DNA of 38,675 nt from assembly GCA_013151745.1 (NCBI GenBank), contig JAADHS010000255.1, positions 1 to 38,675 of the forward strand. Direction: 5' to 3'. The translations under genes and the position numbers were made by a program. This document shows, in pieces, positions 12,858 to 25,258 of this stretch (the stretch's first letter is position 1; every line of letters starts with the position of its first letter). The notes beneath the pieces were generated by a model that did no database searches, had not been told where the DNA came from, and saw only the letters and a list, made by a program, of their open reading frames with translations. The stretch comes from Gammaproteobacteria bacterium (GTDB taxonomy: Bacteria; Pseudomonadota; Gammaproteobacteria; JAADHS01).

Positions 12858-12963
12858 TGTTTAACGTTGAGTGTAATGTAAAATATTTTAAAAAACAACA
12901 GTTAAGGAGTGAATATTGTTTGTTTATTGAATGTTTAACAAAAATAAGAGATAATGTTAAACA
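12858..12963. promoter_or_regulatory. Three TGTTTAAC motifs: candidate operators between glcF and the 13.0-kb cluster
   Basis: The 8-mer TGTTTAAC occurs at 12858-12865 and 12932-12939, and inverted as GTTAAACA at 12956-12963. The first two are preceded by the same GAA. The last two form an inverted pair with a 16-base spacer that brackets the -10 box of the predicted promoter at 12927-12955. The layout suggests binding by a dimeric regulator, possibly the ribbon-helix-helix-like product of the next gene; this is inference. Confidence 0.5.
12927..12955 (+). promoter_or_regulatory. Sigma70-like promoter of the envelope cluster
   Basis: TTGAAT (12927-12932) and GATAAT (12950-12955) are separated by exactly 17 bases. 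Transcription would begin near 12962, about 50 bases before the start codon of the first cluster gene. Confidence 0.6.
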
Positions 12964-12986
12964 CTTTTAGGTGGTTTACCTAAAAG
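12964..12986 (+). promoter_or_regulatory. Leader hairpin or operator before the RHH-like gene
   Basis: Perfect 9-bp inverted repeat CTTTTAGGT (12964-12972) and ACCTAAAAG (12978-12986) with a 5-base loop. It starts about at the predicted transcription start and ends 14 bases before the ribosome-binding site, so it could act as operator DNA or as an RNA stem. Confidence 0.65.
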
Positions 12987-13012
12987 CAATATAATAGATG
13001 AGGAAAAATACC

Positions 13013-13432
13013 ATGAGAGAAATGGCGAATAAATATGCACAAGAAATGCGCGGTCGTGCTATGGCGCAGGCGAAAAAACGTAAAGAAGAATTTTTAGGCG
13101 CACGAGTACCTAAAGGGTTGCGAGACAAGGTCATTCAGTCTGCAGAGGCGCAAGGCATATCGGTATCGATATTGATTCGTAAAATTCTGGAAAAGGCATT
13201 TGAGGGGGATACAGCAGCAAGTGTTTCTGTCAATCAGCAACAACAAACTCCGATGGATATTGCGCAACGATTTCCATCGGTTCTAGGTTGGGATTCAATC
13301 ATTTTAAACCAAGGCGTATCGTGCTCTGCATGTTGTTGTGGGTTATCGGCAGGGAGTCATGTTACTCTGGGACTATCGGCGACCGGGGGAAGCCCTATTG
13401 TGCTTTGTGATCACTGCAAAGGATCTGCATGA
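13013..13432 (+). CDS. Small ribbon-helix-helix-like protein with a Cys-rich tail; putative regulator
   Basis: Not a family I can name. The 139-residue product has a basic N-terminus, then RVPKGLRDKVIQSAEAQGIS and VSILIRKILEKAFEG (about 31-65), with the strand-helix-helix pattern of ribbon-helix-helix DNA-binding domains. A Q-rich linker follows. The C-terminus has CSACCC (C104, C107, C108, C109) and CDHC (C132, C135), two CxxC knuckles compatible with a zinc ribbon or another metal site. The ATG at 13013 is chosen over an in-frame ATG 15 bases upstream because AGGAAAAATACC precedes it. It opens a five-gene plus-strand cluster behind a promoter with repeated motifs, suggesting a metal- or redox-responsive autoregulator (inference). 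Confidence 0.68.
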   Translation: MREMANKYAQEMRGRAMAQAKKRKEEFLGARVPKGLRDKVIQSAEAQGISVSILIRKILEKAFEGDTAASVSVNQQQQTPMDIAQRFPSVLGWDSIILNQGVSCSACCCGLSAGSHVTLGLSATGGSPIVLCDHCKGSA

Positions 13433-13490
13433 TGATTCTGAATCACTCAGTTGATCCATTTTTGGAAAGCGTTAATTAAAGGTATTGATT

Positions 13491-15710
13491 TTGATTAAAC
13501 GCTGGAAAAAGGCTGACGATTCTTGTTTTTCTACGAGTTATGGCCAAATTATTTTCATAGTCGCGCTATATTTATGGGGGGGATCCCATGCTATTGCGAG
13601 TCAAGGTGGCTCGACTGTAGCGGCGATGCCGAACGCACTTCCGTTTAATTCGGCTGCGCTGTATCTCGATACAAAGATCACGAAGGGGCAACTCATCGTG
13701 CTGGCTCAAACAGCGTCTTTGCTTCCCAGGTCGGAGTCAAAAATAAATCGAGAGGTTCTGGCCGAGTATGCTGCCGAAGCCTTGGCAAAAAAGCATTTGA
13801 AAAGTCTGCAAAATAAAGATTCTGGGCTCATCCGGGTTGAGCGAAAAATAAAACATCTTACCCGTGTGTTTTTAGGCCCCTTTCAAAATCGGCTTGAGGC
13901 GCAGCCCATTTTGGATGATCTTAAACAGCGTCGTGTCTTATTTAAATTTAGTTTTGATGATGAATTGCAGGCTTACGTGATTCGTCTAGGCGCATTTGAA
14001 AAAGATCAAGATGTAGAGCGGTTTAGTTCTCAATTGGAAAAATTAAAAATTGGTGGTGTAAAAAAAACGCCGGTTATGTTGAATTTTTATCAAGTTGTTA
14101 GAATTACGATACCGCAAAAAACCCCGAAAATTGTCGATGCTCCCAAGGTTTCTCCTCCTCTTGTTGAGCCTCCTAAAGTCAAGACGGTGGAACCGCCCAA
14201 AGTCAAACCTGTTGAACCACCTGAAGTTGTGGTGATTTCAGTACCTCAGTTCGTGGAACCTTCGGTGGAAATTGAGGGCTTGGGCATAGAGGGATTATTT
14301 ATTGATGATGGCCCTCGTGATGATCAAGAGGAGAGTGAGCCATCTATTTGGGCTGATTTTGAATGGAGTGGTTTTTATCGAAATGAAACGGCTTATCGTT
14401 ATCAGGAGCCTCGCAGTATTAGTAAAGCAAGAAATACCTTATACCTCGATGCACGTTATCCAGTAACAGATAACATTGAATTATTTGCTGCCGGTTGGGC
14501 TTATTATGACTTAGCCTATGATTTATTTAATTATAGAACGATAGCGGCTCGTGTAGAACGAAATGATGAGGAACCATTGGTATTTATAGAGCGTCTTGAT
14601 CAAGAAAAAGACAGTAATGTTAAAGAAATTAGAGAATTATATGCTGATTTTTTGTTTGATGGTCTGGATCTTAGAGTCGGCAAACAATTTATTGTTTGGG
14701 GCGTTTTGGAAGGCGTGCGCATTGTCGATGAAATAAACCCGATAGATTTTCGAGAGCTGATCAATCTTGATTTGTTGGATTATAGAATTCCGCTGTGGTC
14801 GCTTAAATTGGATTATTTTCGGGAAGATACGTCCTATCAACTCGTATGGATACCTGACTTACGGTTTAATAAACCGGCTCCGCGGGGCTCGGAATGGGAG
14901 TTATTGCAAGATGTCTGCGTCGGTCAAGCAGAAGAAATTTTATGTATTGATTCTAGCCCTGAATCATGGACCCTAAAGGATTCAGAAATTGGTCTTAAAA
15001 TAGATACCTATTTGTGGGATACGGAACTTTCTTTCAGTTATTTTTATACTTGGGATGATTTTCCCGTTATTTTTCGCTCTATACGTGTTGATGATAATAC
15101 CGTGCCTCCGGCATTTTACCCACTGTATACGCGCATTCATATGTTTGGTGCAACGGCAGTCAAACAGTTGGGTAATTATATTCTTAAAGGGGAGTTAGCT
15201 TATGTCACAGGTAAATATTTTGGTACCAGAAATGTACCGGATCGTGATGCTAACGGTTATTTAGATGATGATGGCGAGTTGATTCGCAACCATTTTCGCT
15301 GGGGATTGGGGACGGAATTTAATATGATGGGTATGGATGTGTCGCCGGGCATCGCACAATGGGTCATTTTGGATTACGACGAATCGATTATGCAGGAACG
15401 TTTGGATACGTCGTTCTTTCTGTTTGTACGTAAAGAATTGCCCGAAAAAGCCGCGGTTTTTCAGATGTTGGCCATTTATCTTGTTAGCTTAAAAGAACTT
15501 TTACTAAAACCGGAAATTACTTTTCAATTCAGTGACAATTTGCAATTGGGTATTGGCTTGGATTTGTTTTACGGGCTGAAGTCTGACTTTGGCTCCAATC
15601 AATCGCAAGTCACATCTGCTGTCTTTGATCCCAATGCGGCGAGAGCACAATTCATAGGAAATTTTAATAATAATGATCGCATCTATTTTGATTTTAAATA
15701 TTCATTCTAG
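13491..15710 (+). CDS. SPOR-like plus DUF1302-like outer-membrane beta-barrel protein
   Basis: About 739 residues from a TTG at 13491; a TTG at 13485 is also possible, but AAAGG is better spaced from 13491. Residue numbers count from 13485. A hydrophobic segment near 20-38 acts as signal peptide or anchor. Residues about 118-198 match the SPOR fold pattern, with TRVFLGPFQNRLEAQPIL and AYVIRLGAFEKDQDVERF as its halves; SPOR domains bind denuded peptidoglycan glycans. A proline-rich linker with three VEPPKVK-like units (227-247) follows. From about 285 the protein is rich in alternating aromatic strands and contains IRELYADFLFDGLDLRVGKQ and WGVLEGVRIVDEINPIDFRE, typical of DUF1302, and it ends in YSF. 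A transporter gene begins 26 bases later. Confidence 0.75.
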   Translation: MIKRWKKADDSCFSTSYGQIIFIVALYLWGGSHAIASQGGSTVAAMPNALPFNSAALYLDTKITKGQLIVLAQTASLLPRSESKINREVLAEYAAEALAKKHLKSLQNKDSGLIRVERKIKHLTRVFLGPFQNRLEAQPILDDLKQRRVLFKFSFDDELQAYVIRLGAFEKDQDVERFSSQLEKLKIGGVKKTPVMLNFYQVVRITIPQKTPKIVDAPKVSPPLVEPPKVKTVEPPKVKPVEPPEVVVISVPQFVEPSVEIEGLGIEGLFIDDGPRDDQEESEPSIWADFEWSGFYRNETAYRYQEPRSISKARNTLYLDARYPVTDNIELFAAGWAYYDLAYDLFNYRTIAARVERNDEEPLVFIERLDQEKDSNVKEIRELYADFLFDGLDLRVGKQFIVWGVLEGVRIVDEINPIDFRELINLDLLDYRIPLWSLKLDYFREDTSYQLVWIPDLRFNKPAPRGSEWELLQDVCVGQAEEILCIDSSPESWTLKDSEIGLKIDTYLWDTELSFSYFYTWDDFPVIFRSIRVDDNTVPPAFYPLYTRIHMFGATAVKQLGNYILKGELAYVTGKYFGTRNVPDRDANGYLDDDGELIRNHFRWGLGTEFNMMGMDVSPGIAQWVILDYDESIMQERLDTSFFLFVRKELPEKAAVFQMLAIYLVSLKELLLKPEITFQFSDNLQLGIGLDLFYGLKSDFGSNQSQVTSAVFDPNAARAQFIGNFNNNDRIYFDFKYSF

Positions 15711-15736
15711 CCATAATCGGCGATAGGAGAGCACCC

Positions 15737-18271
15737 ATGTTAAATTATTTTTATTCTATGGTTATTCGTTCTCCAAAAATAGTGCTGGCGCTGTTTACTG
15801 TGATTACTATTTATTTAGCAACTCAGTTACCGACCTTGGAATGGGAAACGGATGCTCGTGTTTATATGCCAAAAGGGCATCCTGCCATTGTGTATGATGA
15901 AAAAATAGAGCACCTGTTTGGCGCTAAAGATGCCGTTATTATTGGTATTGTTAATGAAGAAAAAGGTATTTTTAATCCTGAAACTCTGGCTTTAATTACT
16001 CGTGTTACTGAAAAAGTGGCCGCCTTGGATGGCGTCATCGCAAATCGTTTAATTGATGTTGCTTCTTTGTCTACAGCCAGTTTCTTTTTGGGTACGGATA
16101 CGTCGATTGGTGCGAAACGACTGATGCCCTATCCGGTTTCGTCAATCAGCGATATAGAGCAACTGAAAAAAGAAGTTTTTGACAATAGCGACTTATTCGT
16201 TGGCAATATTGTTTCAGCAGATGGCAAGGCGACAATGATTCGCGCCAAGCTCAAAGAAGGGATCGCGAATCGTTATCAAACTTATTGGCAGATCAAAGGC
16301 ATTATTGCTGCAGAAACAGGAGAAGCAGATTGGGAAGGCGCGGATTGGAGTGACAAATGGTCTGAAAACGGGAGTCAAGGCGATTGGAATACCGAAAACG
16401 CTGATCGTGAGAGCAAAAACGAAATTGAGGCTGAGAATGAAACGCCACCAGCCTGGCCTGCTGCTGAGCAGAACGTATGGCCGACTGAAACCTCTGCCGG
16501 AATAGAGAACGGTGATCAGTTTTACATGGCAGGTCGTCCGGTCATCGAGGTGGGTTCAGGCTTGGAAGCGCTATCGGATTTAAAAATAATGATTCCGCTA
16601 TTGCTTGCGGTGATTGCTTTAATGCTTTTTGTTGTGTTTAGAACCAGTCGAGGTGTGTTGTTACCTCTGGCCGTTATGACCGCCAGCATTATCTGGACTA
16701 TGGGTATTATGGCGCTTTTAGATGTGCCTATGTACACCATTTCAACCATGTTACCTGTGATTCTAGTCGCCGTTGGTGTGGGTGATGGCATTCATTTAAT
16801 GAGCCATTATTATGATAATGTATTAACTGACCCACATCGAGAGGGCGGCGTTATTATTGGCGAGGTATTAAATGATATTGGTCCACCTCTGATCATAACT
16901 TCGCTGACTACAGCCATTGGTTTTTTGTCCCTGTGGTTTGCGGAAATGCCACCTTTTAAAATCTTTGGTTTATTTACCGTGCTGGGTATCGTGCTTTGCT
17001 GGTTTCTTTCGGTAACATTGATCCCTGCAGTATTAACCCTGCTGAAGCCCAAGGTTGGGGGATATCTGCAAAAACGTCGTTCTCTACGGGTGCGTGATGA
17101 GCAAAACCAGCTTGTTAAAGCTTTGGTTTCATGGGGCGGCACGGTATTAAAGCGCCGAAATATATTTGCCATTATCGTGGGCGTGATCGTTGTCGTATCA
17201 GCTATTGGTGCGAGCAAGCTCTATGTCAATTCAAGCTGGATGAGTGATTTCAGAGAAAATAGTGACGTTTTTGTTGCGAATAAATTAGTCAATGATCGGT
17301 TCTCTGGGGCTATTACGCTTAATGTTGTTATCGATGGTCAGCGTGATGGTGCTTTGAAATCTCCAGAATTGCTACGTGCTATAGAAGGGTTGCAGGTTCA
17401 TGTTGAGACACTTCCTTTTGTGGGTGCTTCACTTTCCGTTGTTGATTATATTAAAAGTATGAATAAAAATCTTCATTCTGGTGATCCGGCTTATGATGTT
17501 TTACCTGAAACTCAGGCTGAAATATCGGAGTATTTATTTTTGTTTTCTATTTCAGGGCGACCTGAAGAGCTAGATGAAGTTTCTGATTTTAACTATCGGC
17601 AGGCTAATGTCAGTATTCAGGTAAAAACCGATCAAACTCTACATTTGGCTGCTATTGTTGATTCTATCAATACTTTTGTTGATAAGCGTTTTAAAGACTT
17701 AGATGTGGAAGTCAATCTCGCTGGGTCGGGTAACAATTCTTATATTTGGGCTGATCTGCTGATCAGTAGCCAAACCTCGGCGATTGTGTTGTCAAAAATA
17801 GGTATATTTCTATTGGCGAGCCTGCTCTTTCGGTCTTTGTTAATCGGCTTGTTTGTTGTTGCTCCCGTTACACTGACAACGTTGATGGTTGGAGGGGCGA
17901 GTGGCTTTTTAGGTATTCCGTTAGATGTTTCTACCGTGCTTGCTGCGGGTGTCGCTATCGGTGTGGGCGTCGACTATGCCGTTCATTACATATTTAGATA
18001 TATGCGTGTTCTTAAAATCGAGGGTAATCACGAAATCGCAACCCAAGCAGCAATGCGTGGTGTGGGTAAAACGATCGTATTTAATGCGACAGTGGTCACC
18101 GCTGGCTTTTTAGTTTTGTTGTTTTCGGTTTTTCCACCGCACGTGAAGTTAGGCGCGTTCGTTTCGTCGTATATGGTTGTCAGTTGTGTCGTGGCGCTAT
18201 TGATTCTTCCGGTGTTATTCTCGTTTAGTCGCAATGCCATCCTCAAATTAGTCAATGATCGTGCAAATTAA
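15737..18271 (+). CDS. MMPL/RND-superfamily exporter
   Basis: An 844-residue inner-membrane protein with the duplicated RND layout: TM1 at about 12-30, a periplasmic loop, a TM bundle at 283-436, then TM7 at 475-495, a second loop and a bundle at 681-835. Intramembrane acidic motifs lie at VGVGDGIHLMSHYYD (about 346-360) and IGVGVDYAVHYIFRY (741-755), the expected proton-relay positions. The family (MMPL, HpnN and patched-like proteins) mostly moves lipids or hydrophobic molecules. The first loop has an unusual Trp/Asn/Glu-rich insertion at 196-260. AGGAGAG precedes the ATG. No membrane-fusion adaptor or TolC-like gene is adjacent; the neighbours are outer-membrane-type proteins instead. The substrate is unknown. 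Confidence 0.9.
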   Translation: MLNYFYSMVIRSPKIVLALFTVITIYLATQLPTLEWETDARVYMPKGHPAIVYDEKIEHLFGAKDAVIIGIVNEEKGIFNPETLALITRVTEKVAALDGVIANRLIDVASLSTASFFLGTDTSIGAKRLMPYPVSSISDIEQLKKEVFDNSDLFVGNIVSADGKATMIRAKLKEGIANRYQTYWQIKGIIAAETGEADWEGADWSDKWSENGSQGDWNTENADRESKNEIEAENETPPAWPAAEQNVWPTETSAGIENGDQFYMAGRPVIEVGSGLEALSDLKIMIPLLLAVIALMLFVVFRTSRGVLLPLAVMTASIIWTMGIMALLDVPMYTISTMLPVILVAVGVGDGIHLMSHYYDNVLTDPHREGGVIIGEVLNDIGPPLIITSLTTAIGFLSLWFAEMPPFKIFGLFTVLGIVLCWFLSVTLIPAVLTLLKPKVGGYLQKRRSLRVRDEQNQLVKALVSWGGTVLKRRNIFAIIVGVIVVVSAIGASKLYVNSSWMSDFRENSDVFVANKLVNDRFSGAITLNVVIDGQRDGALKSPELLRAIEGLQVHVETLPFVGASLSVVDYIKSMNKNLHSGDPAYDVLPETQAEISEYLFLFSISGRPEELDEVSDFNYRQANVSIQVKTDQTLHLAAIVDSINTFVDKRFKDLDVEVNLAGSGNNSYIWADLLISSQTSAIVLSKIGIFLLASLLFRSLLIGLFVVAPVTLTTLMVGGASGFLGIPLDVSTVLAAGVAIGVGVDYAVHYIFRYMRVLKIEGNHEIATQAAMRGVGKTIVFNATVVTAGFLVLLFSVFPPHVKLGAFVSSYMVVSCVVALLILPVLFSFSRNAILKLVNDRAN

Positions 18272-19220
18272 GGCTGGAGGGAAAAGAGCGCTGGCTTTTT
18301 TCTTGTTGGCGCTACTGAGTACAGATTTGTTGGCCCAAACGGCACGAGGAAAATGGAGTATAAGTCCTATTATAGGTCTTCATTCCCCAGCGCTCGACGT
18401 GCTCAATGAACGAGGATTTAAAGCGCCGGTGACAGGAATAGGAGATACGGAGCGTCCAGAGACCGAAGCGGAGCCGCAGAGAGACACAATTTCGGTTCCA
18501 ATAGGTTTTGATAATGATTTGGAGGCTATTGGTACAAACGCCAATGTGGGGCTGGAGTTTCAATGGGTGCAGAGCGCCAGACATGAGTTTATTATGGGAG
18601 GAAGCACGTGGGAAGGCGATTCCAGTAGCAGTACAAATGGACAGCTGCCGGTGCAAGGTAATGTGCATAATGTTGACTATGTGCGTCGCGCGAAAATATC
18701 ATATAACGAATTTTATTTTGGCTGGCGATATAATTTTCGTTTTAAGGAAACTAAAAAATACAGATTATATAGCCGTATTACATTAAATGAGCTATTTGAT
18801 GTCGACTATAGAGAAGAACATGTTTTTAGCATCCCTCCTGGCGGTCTTGACGTTGATGAAGTGAAGCGAATTTTCATTGTAAAAGGACAAACAACGGGGG
18901 TATTGATGTTTCAGTTTGGTCTGGGAGGGGAATACTTTCTGAGCAAAAAAATGTCAATCGGTATGGAGGCGGGTTATGTGATTTCTCCACAGTCTTTTGA
19001 ATTAAGTTCGACCGCTCTAGAGAGTGATGAACAACTTGGGGATGGTTTTGCCTTGGTTTTACCGGTTCATCCTCGAAATATCAATGCGCCTTTGGGTGCC
19101 ATTGATCCCAATACGGAGGCCTCTCAAAATTGGACTCAGTTAGCCAAGCCTGTACCACAAGATATGAAATTGCGCTTTGACGGCTGGAAGCTGGCATTGA
19201 AATTTACTATTTATTATTAA
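18255..19220 (+). CDS. Exported protein, probable small outer-membrane beta-barrel
   Basis: Not assigned to a family. The 321-residue product starts with a signal peptide (KAGGKRALAFFLLALLSTD, cleavage likely at LLA-QTA). The rest has repeated amphipathic strands with aromatic ends, such as FYFGWRYNFRF, YRLYSRITL, FQFGLGGEYFL and MSIGMEAGYVI, and closes with WKLALKFTIYY, the strand ending typical of outer-membrane barrels. The start overlaps the end of the RND gene by 17 bases. A strong GGAGG at 18275-18279 lies too far inside for this ATG, but starting later would remove the basic n-region of the signal peptide, so 18255 is kept. The overlap implies translational coupling with the transporter and a shared function. 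Confidence 0.7.
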   Translation: MIVQIKAGGKRALAFFLLALLSTDLLAQTARGKWSISPIIGLHSPALDVLNERGFKAPVTGIGDTERPETEAEPQRDTISVPIGFDNDLEAIGTNANVGLEFQWVQSARHEFIMGGSTWEGDSSSSTNGQLPVQGNVHNVDYVRRAKISYNEFYFGWRYNFRFKETKKYRLYSRITLNELFDVDYREEHVFSIPPGGLDVDEVKRIFIVKGQTTGVLMFQFGLGGEYFLSKKMSIGMEAGYVISPQSFELSSTALESDEQLGDGFALVLPVHPRNINAPLGAIDPNTEASQNWTQLAKPVPQDMKLRFDGWKLALKFTIYY

Positions 19221-19262
19221 CATTTAATTCTTAAAAAATGCGTACGAAATAACTTGGCCATT

Positions 19263-21998
19263 ATGTATTTAAAAATAAAACATGCGGCACACTTTAGCTG
19301 TACACCCTTGGTATTGATGTTGTGTGTTTCGTTTTTTTTGTATATTAATAATATGTCTGTTGCTGTTGCTCAGAATAAAAATCAAAATGCTATGGTTGAT
19401 TTATTACAACAAGGCCGGACAGAAATGGAAGAAAAAAATTATGCTAAGGCCATTGTTACATTTAATGAAGTGATAAAAATAAACGCCAAACATGTAGAAG
19501 CCCATTTTCGTATTGGTACCGCCTATTGGCGTCAAAGGAAAGTAAAAGAGGCGCTTAGCTACATGAATAAAGCGATCGAATTCGACCCAAAAAATGTGTC
19601 ACTAAAATTATCCTTGGCCGGTTTCTATGAACAAGTGAAGATGATTAATCGGGCGATTGAACAATATAAACAAATTATTGCTTTGGAAAAAAATACTAAA
19701 CAGGCACGTACCGCGGAGAAGCGTTTGAACTTGGCTTTAGTGAAGGCGTATGCGGCAGGAGGAGATGTTGATACTGCCTTGCAATTGTTAAATTCGATGC
19801 TAGAAGAGCATCCAGGTGACCCTCGTGTTTTACAGCATTTGGGTTTTGCTTACTTGCTTGCAAAGCGTTATGAAGCCGCGGTAGCCATTTATGAAAATGT
19901 TTTGGAGTCTGAACCAAATAGTGACTCTGCACATATGAACCTGGCGGGTGTTTATGAAAAAATGGGTGACCTTGAGAGCGCAATTTCTCACCTTGAGGCC
20001 GTTGCCAAAGGGCCAGCCAGTGCGGGGAGAAAAGCAGAAGCGAAGATTCGTGCCGAGCTTTTTCGAGCTACAGTGGCTCAGGATAAAGGCGATCTTGACG
20101 GTGCGGTTCTTTTTTTAAAGGAAATTTTAAAATTCAGGCCGGCTCATGCCGTAGCGAGTAACCGTTTGGCTGCAGTTTACAGAGCTCAAAATAAATTTGA
20201 TTTATCGGAAGAAATTTTACTGGAATCTATTAAACTGGTTCCAAAAAATATAGATGGAAGACTGAATCTGGCTTCGTTATTTTTACAAAGAAACAACCTG
20301 TTAGATGCCGTATGGCATCTGGATAATATTTTAAACACGGCACCGGATACAAACACAGGGAAGCAAGCCAAAGCATTAATGCAGCAGATTGCTGAGCGAG
20401 TAGGCCAAAATATTCAGCAGATAAAAAATGCTGCTGTCAGTAAGTATAATTTGATAGATTTTCTTGAGAAAGAGCCAGAAAATGCGAAGGCGAGATATCA
20501 ATTAGCCTTGATTTATTTTAAACAAGGAATATATAAAAAAGCATTGTCGGCATTTGAAAAAGTTCGGGAAATTGATCCTGGTAATGCTGGTGTTTATTTA
20601 CATCTGGGCGAGTTGTATTCTAAAAATCGAAAATATGCGGAATCGGCGACGGCATTTGCAAAGCATCTTGCTTTGAGCGAAAACATACAGAACCTGGATC
20701 GTTTGAAACTCGCTTATGCGACGGTGCTGGGCCAACAATTTTACGAAGAAAAAAAACTGGAACAATCGTTGTATCAGTTTCGGCGTGTATTAAAGTCTCA
20801 GCCAAAAGATACCTTGGCAAGTTATTATTCAGCGCTCATTTTATCCAGGCAAGGGGAGATTGAAGAAGCGGCCAGTTTGTATGAGGCAGTTATAGAAAAA
20901 GCACCTAACCATATTGGCGCACATTCGAACATTGCCATAATTTATGAGCAATTAGAAAAAGAAGAAAAAGCTTTAAGCCACTATAGAAAAATTCTGACTA
21001 CGGAACAAACTAAGCAGGTGGTAGACAATGCAGAAAAGAGAATTGTTTTTTTAGAGAAAAAAATTAATGGCCTGACAACGACAGCAAGCTATGCTATGAC
21101 GGTCGATAATAATAGCAATCTGAGTGAGACTGAACCGGATGAAGAGTATTACTCAACATTAAGCGCAAGTTTTTTATATCGTTATAAGTATAGTGATGTG
21201 ATTCGTACTGGTATTCGTTATGCTCCTTCTTATTCGACATACCATATTGGTCAGTACGATTTTTATAACCAGTTAATTAGTCCTTTCGTTGCTTATGAAC
21301 GCAAAAAAAATAAAGCAACATTAACTTATAGTTACAATAAGCTGCAGGGTATATTAAACGAGCAAAATATTAATAATACGCAATCATTCAAGCTGGATTG
21401 GAATCATACCCTCCGTCAAGGGAGAACCTCTGATTTGTCGATCTCTTTTCGCCAGTATGAAGCGGCTACTTCGAGTCTTTTTGATGCCAGTACATGGACG
21501 CTGGCTGGCGTATACCAAAGAAGTCTGGGTAGCGGCTATTCGGATAATTTTTCTTATACCTATAACTTGAATATGAATGACAATTCACAAAATGTAGATG
21601 CAGCGTATCAGTCACATCAATTGTCTTATTCACTTAACAAGTGGTTGAGTACCTCAACATTTGCAAGTTTTTCTATTTCGGGGCGTCTGACAGGTTATGA
21701 TGAGCTAGATAGAATTGCGCTTGAAAAAAGAAAAAGTGCATTTGTTTCGATTAGAGGCAGTATAAACTATCGGCTTAACCAGGCGGTTAGGTTGTTTGGC
21801 AATATCAGTTACCAATTTAATGACGCAAATCTTCCTATTTTTGTATGCCCGGCCAGAAACGAAGACGGTTCGCAGGTGACGCGAGAAGATTGTCGACCAT
21901 TAAACAGTACCGATATTATTGGCGCACCTCAGCAAAGCGCTTCTTTGGGAACGTTTAGCAAAACTATTGTTGGTTTTGGCATTTCAGTGAGTTTTTGA
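19263..21998 (+). CDS. TPR-repeat protein with C-terminal outer-membrane barrel
   Basis: About 911 residues from the ATG at 19263; a TTG nine bases upstream is also in frame and neither has a strong ribosome-binding site. An N-terminal hydrophobic segment (about 13-33, ending AVAQN) is a likely signal peptide. Residues from about 45 to 590 are tandem TPRs, for example MEEKNYAKAIVTFNEVIKIN, QRKVKEALSYMNKAIEFDP and AKRYEAAVAIYENVLESEP. From about 610 to the end alternating strands appear (TASYAMTVDNNSNLSE, FLYRYKYSDVIRTGIRYAP) and the last residues are FGISVSF, a barrel-type C-terminus. Periplasmic TPR plus barrel is the layout of polysaccharide export porins such as BcsC and PgaA, but no glycosyltransferase is nearby. 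It is the last gene of the plus-strand cluster. Confidence 0.8.
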   Translation: MYLKIKHAAHFSCTPLVLMLCVSFFLYINNMSVAVAQNKNQNAMVDLLQQGRTEMEEKNYAKAIVTFNEVIKINAKHVEAHFRIGTAYWRQRKVKEALSYMNKAIEFDPKNVSLKLSLAGFYEQVKMINRAIEQYKQIIALEKNTKQARTAEKRLNLALVKAYAAGGDVDTALQLLNSMLEEHPGDPRVLQHLGFAYLLAKRYEAAVAIYENVLESEPNSDSAHMNLAGVYEKMGDLESAISHLEAVAKGPASAGRKAEAKIRAELFRATVAQDKGDLDGAVLFLKEILKFRPAHAVASNRLAAVYRAQNKFDLSEEILLESIKLVPKNIDGRLNLASLFLQRNNLLDAVWHLDNILNTAPDTNTGKQAKALMQQIAERVGQNIQQIKNAAVSKYNLIDFLEKEPENAKARYQLALIYFKQGIYKKALSAFEKVREIDPGNAGVYLHLGELYSKNRKYAESATAFAKHLALSENIQNLDRLKLAYATVLGQQFYEEKKLEQSLYQFRRVLKSQPKDTLASYYSALILSRQGEIEEAASLYEAVIEKAPNHIGAHSNIAIIYEQLEKEEKALSHYRKILTTEQTKQVVDNAEKRIVFLEKKINGLTTTASYAMTVDNNSNLSETEPDEEYYSTLSASFLYRYKYSDVIRTGIRYAPSYSTYHIGQYDFYNQLISPFVAYERKKNKATLTYSYNKLQGILNEQNINNTQSFKLDWNHTLRQGRTSDLSISFRQYEAATSSLFDASTWTLAGVYQRSLGSGYSDNFSYTYNLNMNDNSQNVDAAYQSHQLSYSLNKWLSTSTFASFSISGRLTGYDELDRIALEKRKSAFVSIRGSINYRLNQAVRLFGNISYQFNDANLPIFVCPARNEDGSQVTREDCRPLNSTDIIGAPQQSASLGTFSKTIVGFGISVSF

Positions 21999-21999
21999 C

Positions 22000-22635
22000 C
22001 TAAAAAAACCACCAGCCTGATTTTTTTTGAAAATGTGGTTCGCATTTTTTTAATTGATTTATATAGCGTTGACTATGTAAGTCAACTTTTTTTGCAACCT
22101 TGATCAGCCATGGTTTTTTCATATAAGATTTTTTTTTAAAGCCGGCTTGTCCTTCATGATAGGCTAAATATTGTAAATAAGTATCCCATTTTGAAATTTT
22201 TAACAGGCCGTGGCTGCGACGAATATACCAGCCAATAAAATCTATGGCATCTTCAAATGAGTCGCGGTCTGCCCATGAGTTGCCTGTTGCCTTTTGATAT
22301 TGTTTCCATGTTCCGTCTATTGCTTGGGCGTAGCCATAAGCCGAAGTAGGCCGAAACATAGGGATAAAACCTAGAAATTTGTTTCTGGGTGGTTTGGCAT
22401 CCGCATGAAAATGAGATTCTTGCCGAACAATAGCCATGGTGACATGGATAGGTGCACCCCAACGTTCGTAGGCCTCTTTTGCATTGGGGTACCAGTCGGG
22501 TTTTTCCTTAAATATGGAGCAAATGTCATTGACATCTTTTGGTGGTAACTGAACGCAAGCGCTAAGTATCGTTGTGCAACAGAGCAAAGTAATAAGTTTA
22601 TGGGCGCGGGCTGAGTTTTTCATACTTTTAGGCAT
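22000..22635 (-). CDS. Lytic transglycosylase-like lipoprotein (SLT domain)
   Basis: A 211-residue protein with a lipoprotein signal peptide (LITLLCCTTILSAC, lipidated C27) and an SLT-type lysozyme fold. The catalytic glutamate is E73 in MAIVRQESHFHA, followed by SAYGYAQAIDGTWKQYQ and the helix ending YLAYHEGQAGF. Such enzymes cleave the glycan strands of peptidoglycan to make 1,6-anhydro ends, usually from the periplasmic face of the outer membrane. The start is the ATG at 22635; another ATG at 22623 would also leave the lipobox intact, and neither has a strong ribosome-binding site. It converges tail to tail with the TPR-barrel gene, separated by one base and with no terminator visible. A role in opening the wall for the adjacent envelope proteins is speculative. 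Confidence 0.85.
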   Translation of the reverse strand: MPKSMKNSARAHKLITLLCCTTILSACVQLPPKDVNDICSIFKEKPDWYPNAKEAYERWGAPIHVTMAIVRQESHFHADAKPPRNKFLGFIPMFRPTSAYGYAQAIDGTWKQYQKATGNSWADRDSFEDAIDFIGWYIRRSHGLLKISKWDTYLQYLAYHEGQAGFKKKSYMKKPWLIKVAKKVDLHSQRYINQLKKCEPHFQKKSGWWFF

Positions 22636-23179: not shown

Positions 23180-25258
23180 ATGGATATGAAAAAAAGACGC
23201 ACCGTTTTTGCTGCGGGGCTGGTATTCAGTGTGATGGCTCTACCAATGGCAGGAGCCCAAGATCAAAGTGCCAAATTAAAAAATGCGATGGAAAAACAGG
23301 TTGCGCTGGGTATACAGGCGGTTCCTAAAGCTTTTACTGATCAGGTCATTCGAGCTGCATCATCTAAAGCCTTTACTGATCAGGCTATTCAAACCGCATC
23401 ATTACGGACGTTACCCGGCCCAAATCCATTTCTTAGTAAAGTTGTCGACCTCACCAAGGTTGATTTTTATAGTTGGCGCATGGCGGTTGCATCGCAAGCT
23501 GTTGCTGCTCAAAAAACTCGGGATGCTGCCCAGGACAATTTTCAAGTTAGTGATCTCCAGCCCCTGGTCATCGATGAACTTGAGCCTGATAGTCTCTCTG
23601 GATTGAATGACACATTGGCCACGAAAGAACTCGTCAAGGGGTTCGGTACGGATACCAATCCAAAAGCTCGAATTCTTGGTGTTCTCGCTCCATTAAGGGA
23701 TGTTTACACGGACTTTCCCGGTTTTGCTGAATTTAATGGCGTTGATGGGGCGGATGATGGGGCCATCCCGTTTGCCAATGAAACGGGTGTCGCCACCAGT
23801 TTCGGTGCCATACAAACCAGTGGCATCATCGGTGACGGTGCCCATGGCAGTGCAGCCAGCGGCACTGGAGATTTTGACTTTTATCGTGTCGAGCTTTTGT
23901 CAGGGCAAAGCATAATCGCAGATACGGATATCACAGGCGATCTGGATTCAGTGCTCGTGATTTATAACGCTGCGGGCGAAGTGGTTGCTGTGAATGACGA
24001 TGACGGTGTGACTTTAGCGAGTAAATTGACCTATACACCCGCCGAGGCGGGGACGTTTTTTATCATGGTATCCGGGTTTGGTGAGGGAATCATTTTTCCT
24101 GAAGATCCATTTGATCCTGCAAGCGGTCTTGGAGTCGGTAGCGAAGGTGCATATGAGCTGCTCATCACGACAGCCAAACCGGATATTGACGTTTATGCTG
24201 TCGATCTCAGGGCTGGGGACGTTCTCGGCGCAACCCTCCAAGGGGCGGGGAGCCAGCTACAAATTTTTGAACCCAATGGTACTGAGGCCATAGGCTCGTC
24301 TCAGGATCTTAGTGCGCTCTATCCCGTCGCGTCTCCGTTACCAGGTGGTGGCAACGCGGTGGTGGCTTATACTGCTTCGGTCGATGCGCAACACTTTATT
24401 ATTATTAGTGGTAATACTGAGGGAAGCTATGAAGCCATTTTTGAAGTGTATCGTGCCGGATTAGAGGACGAGCCTCGTGGCTCAGTGCAAACCATTTTTC
24501 TTGATTTCGATGGCGCGCGGGTACAGACGAGTGTGTTTGATGGACCAGGACAACGAGATTTCACCGGGCTGGCTGCTTTTCTCGGTGGCTGGGGGCTTCG
24601 TTCTGACGACGAAGATTCGCTTATTGATGCCATTGTGAAGGTTGTCAAAGAAAACCTCCATGACGATTTGAAAAGACGCGGTCTTAACGAAAAATTTGGT
24701 GTGAAAGTTTTCGATAGTCGCAACCCATATATTGAATTTGGCTCCGATCAGGTTAGTCGAGTCGTCATCGGGGGTACAATCCAGGAATCGGGTATTGAAA
24801 CATTCGCAGCCGCCTCTTCAATCGACCCAGGTAACTTTGGCTACGAGGACGATGCGTTTGTATTGCTCGATCTGTTGAGTGCGCCGGTTCCTTCTCCATT
24901 TTCGATCAACACGTATTTCGCAGAAAATGCCGATACTGAGGATCGTATCAATTTTGTCGCCATAGGGGTTGGCAATCTCGTTGCTCACGAGATCGGTCAT
25001 TACCTTGGTAGCTACCATACCGATGAATCCAATAATACTCTGGATCTTATGGATGAGGGGGGTAATCTGGCCAATATATTGGGTGTTGGTGACGATCTGG
25101 TATTCGGCACCGATGACGATATTGATATCGACTTTGGTCAGGACAGTTTTTCATCATCCGAGGGGCTTTTTACGGGTATTGAAGACACGCTCAATAACTC
25201 TGCGTTTGGTCTTACTGTCAATCATTGTCGGTCTGGCCGCTGGCCGATTTTGTGCTAA
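23180..25258 (+). CDS. Secreted metzincin-like metalloprotease with PPC-type domain
   Basis: The 692-residue product begins with a signal peptide (KKRRTVFAAGLVFSVMALPMAGA). Residues about 229-300 form a pre-peptidase C-terminal-like beta domain (DFDFYRVELLSGQSIIADTD, LDSVLVIYNAAGEVVAVNDD, GTFFIMVSGFGEG), common in secreted proteases. The catalytic site is HEIGHYLGSYH at 603-613, the HExxHxxGxxH zinc motif of metzincins, and LDLMDEGG a few residues later suits a Met-turn. A 13-residue duplication (KAFTDQVIRAASS, KAFTDQAIQTASL) lies near residues 50-75. AAGGAAAAG precedes the ATG. The gene looks more GC-rich than its neighbours, hinting at separate origin. The substrate is unknown; the Cys-containing tail NHCRSGRWPILC shows no recognised sorting signal. 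Confidence 0.82.
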   Translation: MDMKKRRTVFAAGLVFSVMALPMAGAQDQSAKLKNAMEKQVALGIQAVPKAFTDQVIRAASSKAFTDQAIQTASLRTLPGPNPFLSKVVDLTKVDFYSWRMAVASQAVAAQKTRDAAQDNFQVSDLQPLVIDELEPDSLSGLNDTLATKELVKGFGTDTNPKARILGVLAPLRDVYTDFPGFAEFNGVDGADDGAIPFANETGVATSFGAIQTSGIIGDGAHGSAASGTGDFDFYRVELLSGQSIIADTDITGDLDSVLVIYNAAGEVVAVNDDDGVTLASKLTYTPAEAGTFFIMVSGFGEGIIFPEDPFDPASGLGVGSEGAYELLITTAKPDIDVYAVDLRAGDVLGATLQGAGSQLQIFEPNGTEAIGSSQDLSALYPVASPLPGGGNAVVAYTASVDAQHFIIISGNTEGSYEAIFEVYRAGLEDEPRGSVQTIFLDFDGARVQTSVFDGPGQRDFTGLAAFLGGWGLRSDDEDSLIDAIVKVVKENLHDDLKRRGLNEKFGVKVFDSRNPYIEFGSDQVSRVVIGGTIQESGIETFAAASSIDPGNFGYEDDAFVLLDLLSAPVPSPFSINTYFAENADTEDRINFVAIGVGNLVAHEIGHYLGSYHTDESNNTLDLMDEGGNLANILGVGDDLVFGTDDDIDIDFGQDSFSSSEGLFTGIEDTLNNSAFGLTVNHCRSGRWPILC
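23327..23404 (+). repeat. 39-bp tandem duplication inside the protease gene
   Basis: Two adjacent 39-base units (23327-23365 and 23366-23404) encode 13-residue repeats beginning KAFTDQ. They differ at several positions, so the duplication is not recent. It lies in the linker after the signal peptide. Confidence 0.85.

Follow-up and report, generated by a model that had tools for sequence, protein, structure and literature searches.

We analysed a window of 38,675 nucleotides (contig JAADHS010000255.1 of assembly GCA_013151745.1, from a Gammaproteobacteria bacterium) that carries, on its + strand at 12998-21998, a cassette of five genes encoding an RHH/Cys4 protein (gene 1), a SPOR-DUF1302 protein (gene 2), an MMPL pump (gene 3), a small outer-membrane-type protein (gene 4) and a TPR-barrel protein (gene 5). 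The cassette is a conserved envelope unit, and apparently an undescribed one: a search of openly accessible papers found no published description of this five-gene set. We consider it probable that the five genes form an operon encoding the pump and the outer-membrane half of a dedicated export path, leading from the inner to the outer membrane and serving one hydrophobic or amphiphilic cargo, possibly lipid-linked or polymeric. The observations that carry this reading are the conserved gene order, the carrier and ABC genes found in trans, Trp-rich tracts and a 14-strand barrel model.

Conservation of the cassette and of a longer locus around it

The five genes are a real unit, with an order kept far beyond chance. 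Of 56 relatives sampled, the window's genome included, six have gene 4, and all six carry the five genes in identical order and in one direction. The same order of all five is kept in 27 of the 35 gammaproteobacterial loci with enough flank, with median gaps of 10, 44.5, -5 and 30.5 bases, measured between profile matches. When the DUF1302 alignment was run against 84,980 species genomes, 53 loci were recovered, of which 49 belong to metagenome-assembled genomes (MAGs) of the clade that are gammaproteobacterial or unnamed proteobacterial; the relatives' genomes are draft MAGs. No named isolate is among these loci, but the scan is pattern-based and can miss divergent members, so that this absence is no proof. 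Within the class, 24 of 369 genomes sampled (9 families) have gene 4, while in a sample of 398 genomes of the phylum it occurs in the window's own alone. The first-pass annotation of the window had proposed one RND/MMPL pump and three outer-membrane-type proteins, encoded by five co-directional genes, as a candidate undescribed export system, to be abandoned if the genes did not co-occur elsewhere. Genes and direction were recovered as named, with intergenic gaps of 52, 26, -17 and 33 bases (the last being 42 if gene 5 begins at the ATG at 19263), and the genes do co-occur elsewhere, since their order is kept in 27 of 35 loci. A consensus scan found no terminator-like site in any intergenic gap.

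Pump-less copies stand at L063, L065, L071, L073 and L080 (L, C and G numbers are our handles for loci, contigs and genomes), where DUF1302 is followed by gene 4, plus gene 5 where the contig extends. Several of these genomes also carry a pump-bearing second locus, for example L063 with L089, which suggests that two outer-membrane sets may share a single pump.

The locus of most relatives extends further, from a secreted protein and a LolA_like gene through genes 1-5 to a convergent ABC-2 permease and ATPase. The LolA_like gene lies at most 2.5 kb upstream of the cassette in 28 of 41 loci, the secreted protein, of unassigned fold, upstream in 28 of 39, and the convergent ABC-2 exporter is found in 24 of 28 testable loci. 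The relatives' upstream carrier scores above cut-off for both PF17131 and PF07044. In the window's genome (G000), the best LolA_like match is at C124:2118-2924, right behind the secreted protein (1187-2026), and the ABC ATPase is at C203:8550-9875, followed by its permease. Because the C124 and C203 pieces keep the outer neighbours of the intact loci (histidine phosphatase and tsaD), the simplest history is that one ancestral locus was split into three in this genome. By Pfam scan, the cassette and its checked neighbours hold no adaptor (membrane fusion protein), TolC-type or DUF1329/LolA gene, in line with what the first-pass annotation had seen for adaptor, TolC-like and DUF1329 genes. The picture of a system lacking a LolA/DUF1329-type partner was not supported, given the carrier upstream in relatives and the orthologue at C124, and a pump working without a carrier was rejected on the latter. 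The proposed extent of five genes was right for the conserved core and too small for the cluster, which is larger in most lineages.

The secreted protein is beta-rich, with 8 invariant residues and two conserved Cys. Its model (predicted local distance difference test, pLDDT, 71) gave no PDB match with E below 0.3, and no lipobox was seen in the sequences inspected. The family is duplicated at L135:9064-11232 (G053:C82) and L053:6135-8441, one genome having a 722-residue double-length protein and the other tandem genes. Two tandem LolA_like genes lie upstream of gene 1 in one subclade (L060, L066, L067, L070, L088 and L093), and in some genomes multihaem-type cytochromes with CxxCH-like motifs are encoded close to LolA_like or to the ABC exporter (L126:6057-6896, on G000:C124, and L038:17531-18766). 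Two Omnitrophota loci, L094 and L095, show an MMPL - LolA_like - DUF1302 trio lacking genes 1 and 4 and a full gene 5.

The cassette proteins and the Trp-rich tracts

Gene 3 matches MMPL (PF03176, E 6e-32, over the Pfam cut-off), and its best NCBIfam match is the HAE3 family TIGR00921 (199.6 bits, cut-off 351.9); as HpnN it scores 85.6 bits on the equivalog TIGR03480, which has a cut-off of 751.85. Asp746 in transmembrane helix (TM) 10 is invariant in 42 pumps of the clade, and Asp350 on the TM4 side is replaced by Asn in six of them, all of one subclade (L048, L049, L054, L057, L090 and L036). All 42 carry a low-complexity insert of 41-315 residues in the periplasmic loop between TM1 and TM2, with a Trp content of 7.6% against 1.1% elsewhere, and four other MMPL pumps have no Trp-rich equivalent. 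The ABC ATPase of the longer locus, the G000 copy included, bears a conserved EWWKQWAGKGGG box and then a Trp-rich tail. Among 897 open reading frames, the modules WxGNxWV and [DEN]W[QRKE][KQ]W are confined to the pumps and this ATPase. A ligand shared by the two tracts is likelier than direct contact between them, since the pump's tract is expected in the periplasm and the ATPase's in the cytoplasm. Near-identical repeats of the WQGNEWVNxDGTxK type occur in an ATPase tail (L073:15937-17475) and in the pump inserts of L082 and L085; they may faintly resemble choline/glucan-binding repeats.

Gene 5 has many Pfam TPR matches, and AlphaFold2 predicts its C-terminus to form a 14-strand barrel (pLDDT 88.5, predicted template modelling score 0.82) whose best PDB folds are OmpG and CymA, with FadL, PelB and PgaA lower in the ranking. 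Family scores are 44.9 bits for PgaA (cut-off 366.65) and 46.5 for BcsC (cut-off 858). The TPR_Slam match on gene 5 is a match to TPR and not to the barrel, and five barrel sequences scanned alone gave no match to the Slam barrel family. Membership in PgaA, BcsC or Slam was rejected on these scores, the strand number and the OmpG/CymA folds. At L064:1-7266, L068:1-3195, L072:12502-21324 and L089:3-4265, the cassette is accompanied by very large TPR proteins (about 1060 to 2420 residues, some truncated at contig ends) that are relatives of gene 5.

Gene 2 exceeds the curated Pfam cut-offs for both SPOR (E 6e-7) and DUF1302 (E 1e-16; 61 bits, cut-off 23.2), and its barrel is 46-72% identical in relatives. 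The peptidoglycan-binding-like domain of the first-pass annotation is therefore present in gene 2 as SPOR, but it is not a feature of the system. Among the copies checked, it is limited to those of the window and G001 and to a paralogue on C195, that is, to two genera of the window's family, and it is absent from the scanned gene 2 members outside that family. Peptidoglycan docking as a core feature was rejected accordingly. The paralogue (L039:360-2585, G000:C195) is a SPOR-DUF1302 protein with no pump adjoining; it shares 68% identity with gene 2 over the N-terminal part and has a far more divergent barrel, an apparent barrel swap.

For gene 1, which in most loci immediately precedes gene 2, Pfam gives only below-threshold RHH matches (weak RHH_5/Arc). 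Across 29 homologues, the RHH core and four Cys (C109/C112/C137/C140, CxxC...CxxC) are invariant in the alignment, so that gene 1 can reasonably be read as a metal-bearing regulator that binds DNA. The first-pass family assignments thus hold, by Pfam for SPOR plus DUF1302, MMPL and TPR and by these invariant columns for RHH/Cys. Gene 4 has a signal peptide, amphipathic strand periodicity and conserved motifs; it belongs to no curated family, with only a sub-threshold OMP_b-brl match (20.4 bits, cut-off 28.7). Profile searches of PDB with gene 4, with DUF1302 and with the RHH/Cys4 protein turned up no informative relative.

Table 1. Features of the cassette in the window (aa, amino acids)
Feature	Position	Strand	Description
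Gene 1	12998..13432	+	144 aa; RHH plus C-terminal Cys4 (zinc-ribbon-like) protein, probable DNA-binding regulator
Cys4 region of gene 1 (CxxC-x24-CxxC)	13322..13417	+	invariant alignment columns
Gene 2	13485..15710	+	741 aa, TTG start (predicted); signal peptide, SPOR, Pro-rich linker, DUF1302 outer-membrane barrel
SPOR domain of gene 2	13761..13925	+	PF05036, residues 93-147; lineage-specific addition
DUF1302 core match of gene 2	14445..15212	+	PF06980, residues 321-576
Gene 3	15737..18271	+	844 aa; MMPL RND pump, possibly HAE3-type, 12 predicted TM helices
Trp/Gly/Gln/Asn-rich insert of gene 3 pump	16322..16528	+	periplasmic loop 1, immediately ahead of TM2
Gene 4	18255..19220	+	321 aa; secreted outer-membrane-type protein without Pfam family; best system marker
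Gene 5	19254..21998	+	914 aa, TTG start (ATG at 19263); signal peptide, ~545-residue TPR region, C-terminal barrel
TPR region of gene 5	19407..21044	+	Pfam TPR models
14-strand beta-barrel of gene 5	21045..21998	+	AlphaFold2 model m442076e87e04
Terminator-like hairpin plus T run	22068..22086	+	consensus scan; 70 bases past gene 5; stem + T7; not in itself evidence of function

The genes flanking the cassette are housekeeping or unrelated (coq7, fbp, thyA, folA, rho, ATP synthase and a lytic transglycosylase), and no RNA families or tRNAs were found in the window. Positions 23180-25258 encode a secreted PPC-domain protein with a weak zinc-protease motif of the metzincin type, which was not seen with the cassette in relatives.

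The proposed export path, its alternatives and the genomes that carry it

We infer that the five genes are co-transcribed, that transport is outward and that the cargo is of the class named above. The ABC-2 exporter with the Trp-rich ATPase tail would carry the cargo across the inner membrane, and the proton-driven MMPL pump would then extract it from the periplasmic leaflet, with the Trp-rich insert contributing to the grip on the cargo. The LolA_like carrier, whose gene lies elsewhere in this genome but within the locus in most relatives, would shuttle the cargo through the periplasm. At the outer membrane, the DUF1302 barrel, the gene 4 protein and the TPR-barrel would take the cargo over and either place it at the surface or release it there. 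Regulation of the cassette would fall to gene 1, and the secreted protein may also take part. Experimental precedents for such a path are AmeABCD (PMC6394551), PP_0765/0766 with PP_2018/2019 of Pseudomonas putida (PMC10866462) and ApeLMN (PMC8253772).

Several observations weigh against this export path. The Trp motifs were defined only after inspection of the sequences, and their co-occurrence in pump and ATPase is therefore suggestive. The ABC exporter adjoins tsaD in relatives, so its adjacency to the cassette could be plain vertical synteny; likewise, distances among the cassette genes correlate with each other but track tsaD as well (0.84-0.94 between distance matrices), and thus show vertical inheritance and not special coupling. 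Some genomes hold copies of genes 2, 4 and 5 with no pump, the window's genome is a draft of 292 contigs, and no biosynthetic genes point to a cargo. DUF1302/DUF1329 systems may also act in uptake, as in the use of Tween 20 by Pseudomonas putida (PMC10866462).

An exopolymer exporter would place the TPR-barrel among polysaccharide porins like BcsC, PgaA and PelB, with the pump moving a lipid carrier and the Trp-rich tracts binding sugar rings of an ABC-exported glycan. The TPR plus barrel architecture, the PelB and PgaA barrels among the gene 5 fold matches and the common ligand suggested by Trp-rich tracts on both sides of the inner membrane, in the pump's periplasmic loop and in the ABC tail in the cytoplasm, all agree with this. 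However, the barrel is modelled with 14 strands and is closest to OmpG and CymA, the PgaA and BcsC scores are far under cut-off, and the neighbour clusters listed include no glycosyltransferase or synthase recurring beside the cassette; we regard this explanation as unlikely. Protein display, in which the secreted protein next to the carrier is cargo that a Slam-like TPR-barrel puts on the surface, draws on the position of that protein, near LolA_like in most loci and adjoining it on C124, and on the fact that Slam proteins too combine TPR with a 14-strand barrel. With no lipobox in the sequences inspected, no Slam barrel family match and a secreted-protein model of moderate confidence that has no fold match, it appears very unlikely.

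The DUF1302 and TPR barrels might instead import a hydrophobic nutrient in the manner of FadL, which is among the 14-strand folds matched by gene 5, with pump and carrier protecting the membrane. RND pumps transport cargo outward, no degradation genes were seen adjoining the cassette, and all 24 carriers tested have RuBisCO and are probably autotrophs. Uptake thus has little probability in our view, even with the P. putida DUF1302/DUF1329 proteins required for Tween 20 use (PMC10866462). A general role in outer-membrane lipid homeostasis, shuttling hopanoid-like lipids or phospholipids with no special product, could be argued from HAE3 relatives such as HpnN, which move hopanoids (PMC6394551), and from the weak HpnN profile match on the pump. 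That match is far below its cut-off, and the narrow distribution in class and phylum would be odd for a housekeeping role, which leaves lipid homeostasis highly improbable.

The genomes that carry the cassette share a physiological profile: RuBisCO is present in 24/24, dsrA in 0/24 and soxB over cut-off in 1/24, compared with 13, 11 and 12 of 31 non-carriers of the class. Among RuBisCO-positive genomes, dsrA is found in none of the 24 carriers and in 11 of 13 non-carriers (Fisher p 9e-8; 0/9 versus 11/13, p 2e-4, with carriers counted by family), in tests that ignore phylogeny. The carriers therefore look like autotrophs outside the standard Dsr/Sox sulfur route, although a RuBisCO match alone is no proof of autotrophy and two non-carriers have weak RuBisCO-like matches. 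Oxidation of iron, hydrogen or sulfur (sHdr-type), or at an electrode, are candidate metabolisms, and biocathode organisms of the Ca. Tenderia type are one lead (PMC5371394). A Cyc2-like motif, too strict to be informative, occurs in 2/24 carriers and 1/31 others. A more specific and doubtful proposal is an ATP-driven plus proton-driven relay, in which disordered Trp-rich tracts, one cytoplasmic and one periplasmic, would recognise the same cargo and pass it by a LolA-type carrier to a three-protein outer-membrane port. The product would be special to RuBisCO-bearing gammaproteobacteria without Dsr and mostly without Sox, which may oxidise iron or draw on other electron donors that are solid or extracellular.

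Combinations of an MMPL pump with LolA_like and DUF1302 partners are common, and almost nothing is known of what they carry. To these the cassette adds two outer-membrane-type proteins, of which one is a new TPR-barrel, and, in the Trp-rich tracts, a recognition element that can be tested. The cassette is confined to genomes that have RuBisCO, lack Dsr and, in all but one case, lack SoxB; this links it to a physiology, narrows the search for the cargo and makes gene 4 a marker for that physiology.

Comparison with known systems

The window's genome itself holds a related trio on C265 (L040), MMPL - LolA_like (PF17131) - DUF1302, whose pump and barrel are 29% and 27% identical to those of the cassette; it lacks gene 4, gene 5, the RHH gene and the Trp-rich insert. 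The PgaA, BcsC and PelB porins resemble gene 5 in having a periplasmic TPR region followed by an outer-membrane barrel, but there is no family-level match, and among the neighbour clusters listed no synthase was seen near the cassette. The PgaA and BcsC barrels have 16 strands, compared with 14 modelled here. HAE1 tripartite pumps of the AcrAB-TolC type depend on a membrane fusion protein and a TolC-type channel, neither of which is in the cassette or the checked neighbours.

In aryl polyene transport by ApeLMN, an RND pump likewise delivers a lipid-like product, bound for the outer membrane, to LolA/LolB-like proteins, whereas biosynthetic genes are adjacent and DUF1302 and a TPR-barrel are missing (PMC8253772). 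The Borrelia BBJ23-29 cluster combines an ABC exporter, a LolA-like protein, TPR proteins and an outer-membrane barrel; it differs in its MacB/LolCDE-type transporter, its Omp85 barrel and the lack of an RND pump, and is predicted only (PMC13078400). In P. putida, PP_0765/0766 and PP_2018/2019 are linked by fitness and predicted to interact, so that DUF1302 and DUF1329 proteins work with a pump from another locus, while in the window's genome it is the carrier that lies elsewhere; no TPR-barrel or Trp-rich pump insert is reported for that system, which is tied to Tween 20 use (PMC10866462).

AmeABCD of Castellaniella defragrans, which protects against monoterpenes, shares with the cassette system a conserved gene set for an RND pump, a DUF1302 outer-membrane protein and a periplasmic protein of the LolA/DUF1329 superfamily, with no membrane fusion protein or TolC (PMC6394551). 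The Ame pump is of HAE3 type, and the cassette pump possibly so, with HAE3 as its best family match but a score below the cut-off. It differs in having AmeC (COG4447), carrier genes in cis and a surrounding catabolic island, and it lacks gene 4, TPR-barrel and RHH/Cys4 proteins and, as described, an ABC-2 exporter (PMC6394551). A Pfam scan of the cassette found no AmeC-like COG4447 protein among its genes. Because the in-cis LolA protein and AmeC are absent and parts that Ame lacks are present, the cassette is not an Ame member; it is best read as a variant of the HAE3/MMPL-LolA-DUF1302 hydrophobe exporters, outside the Ame cassette proper, with a TPR-barrel and an extra outer-membrane-type protein.

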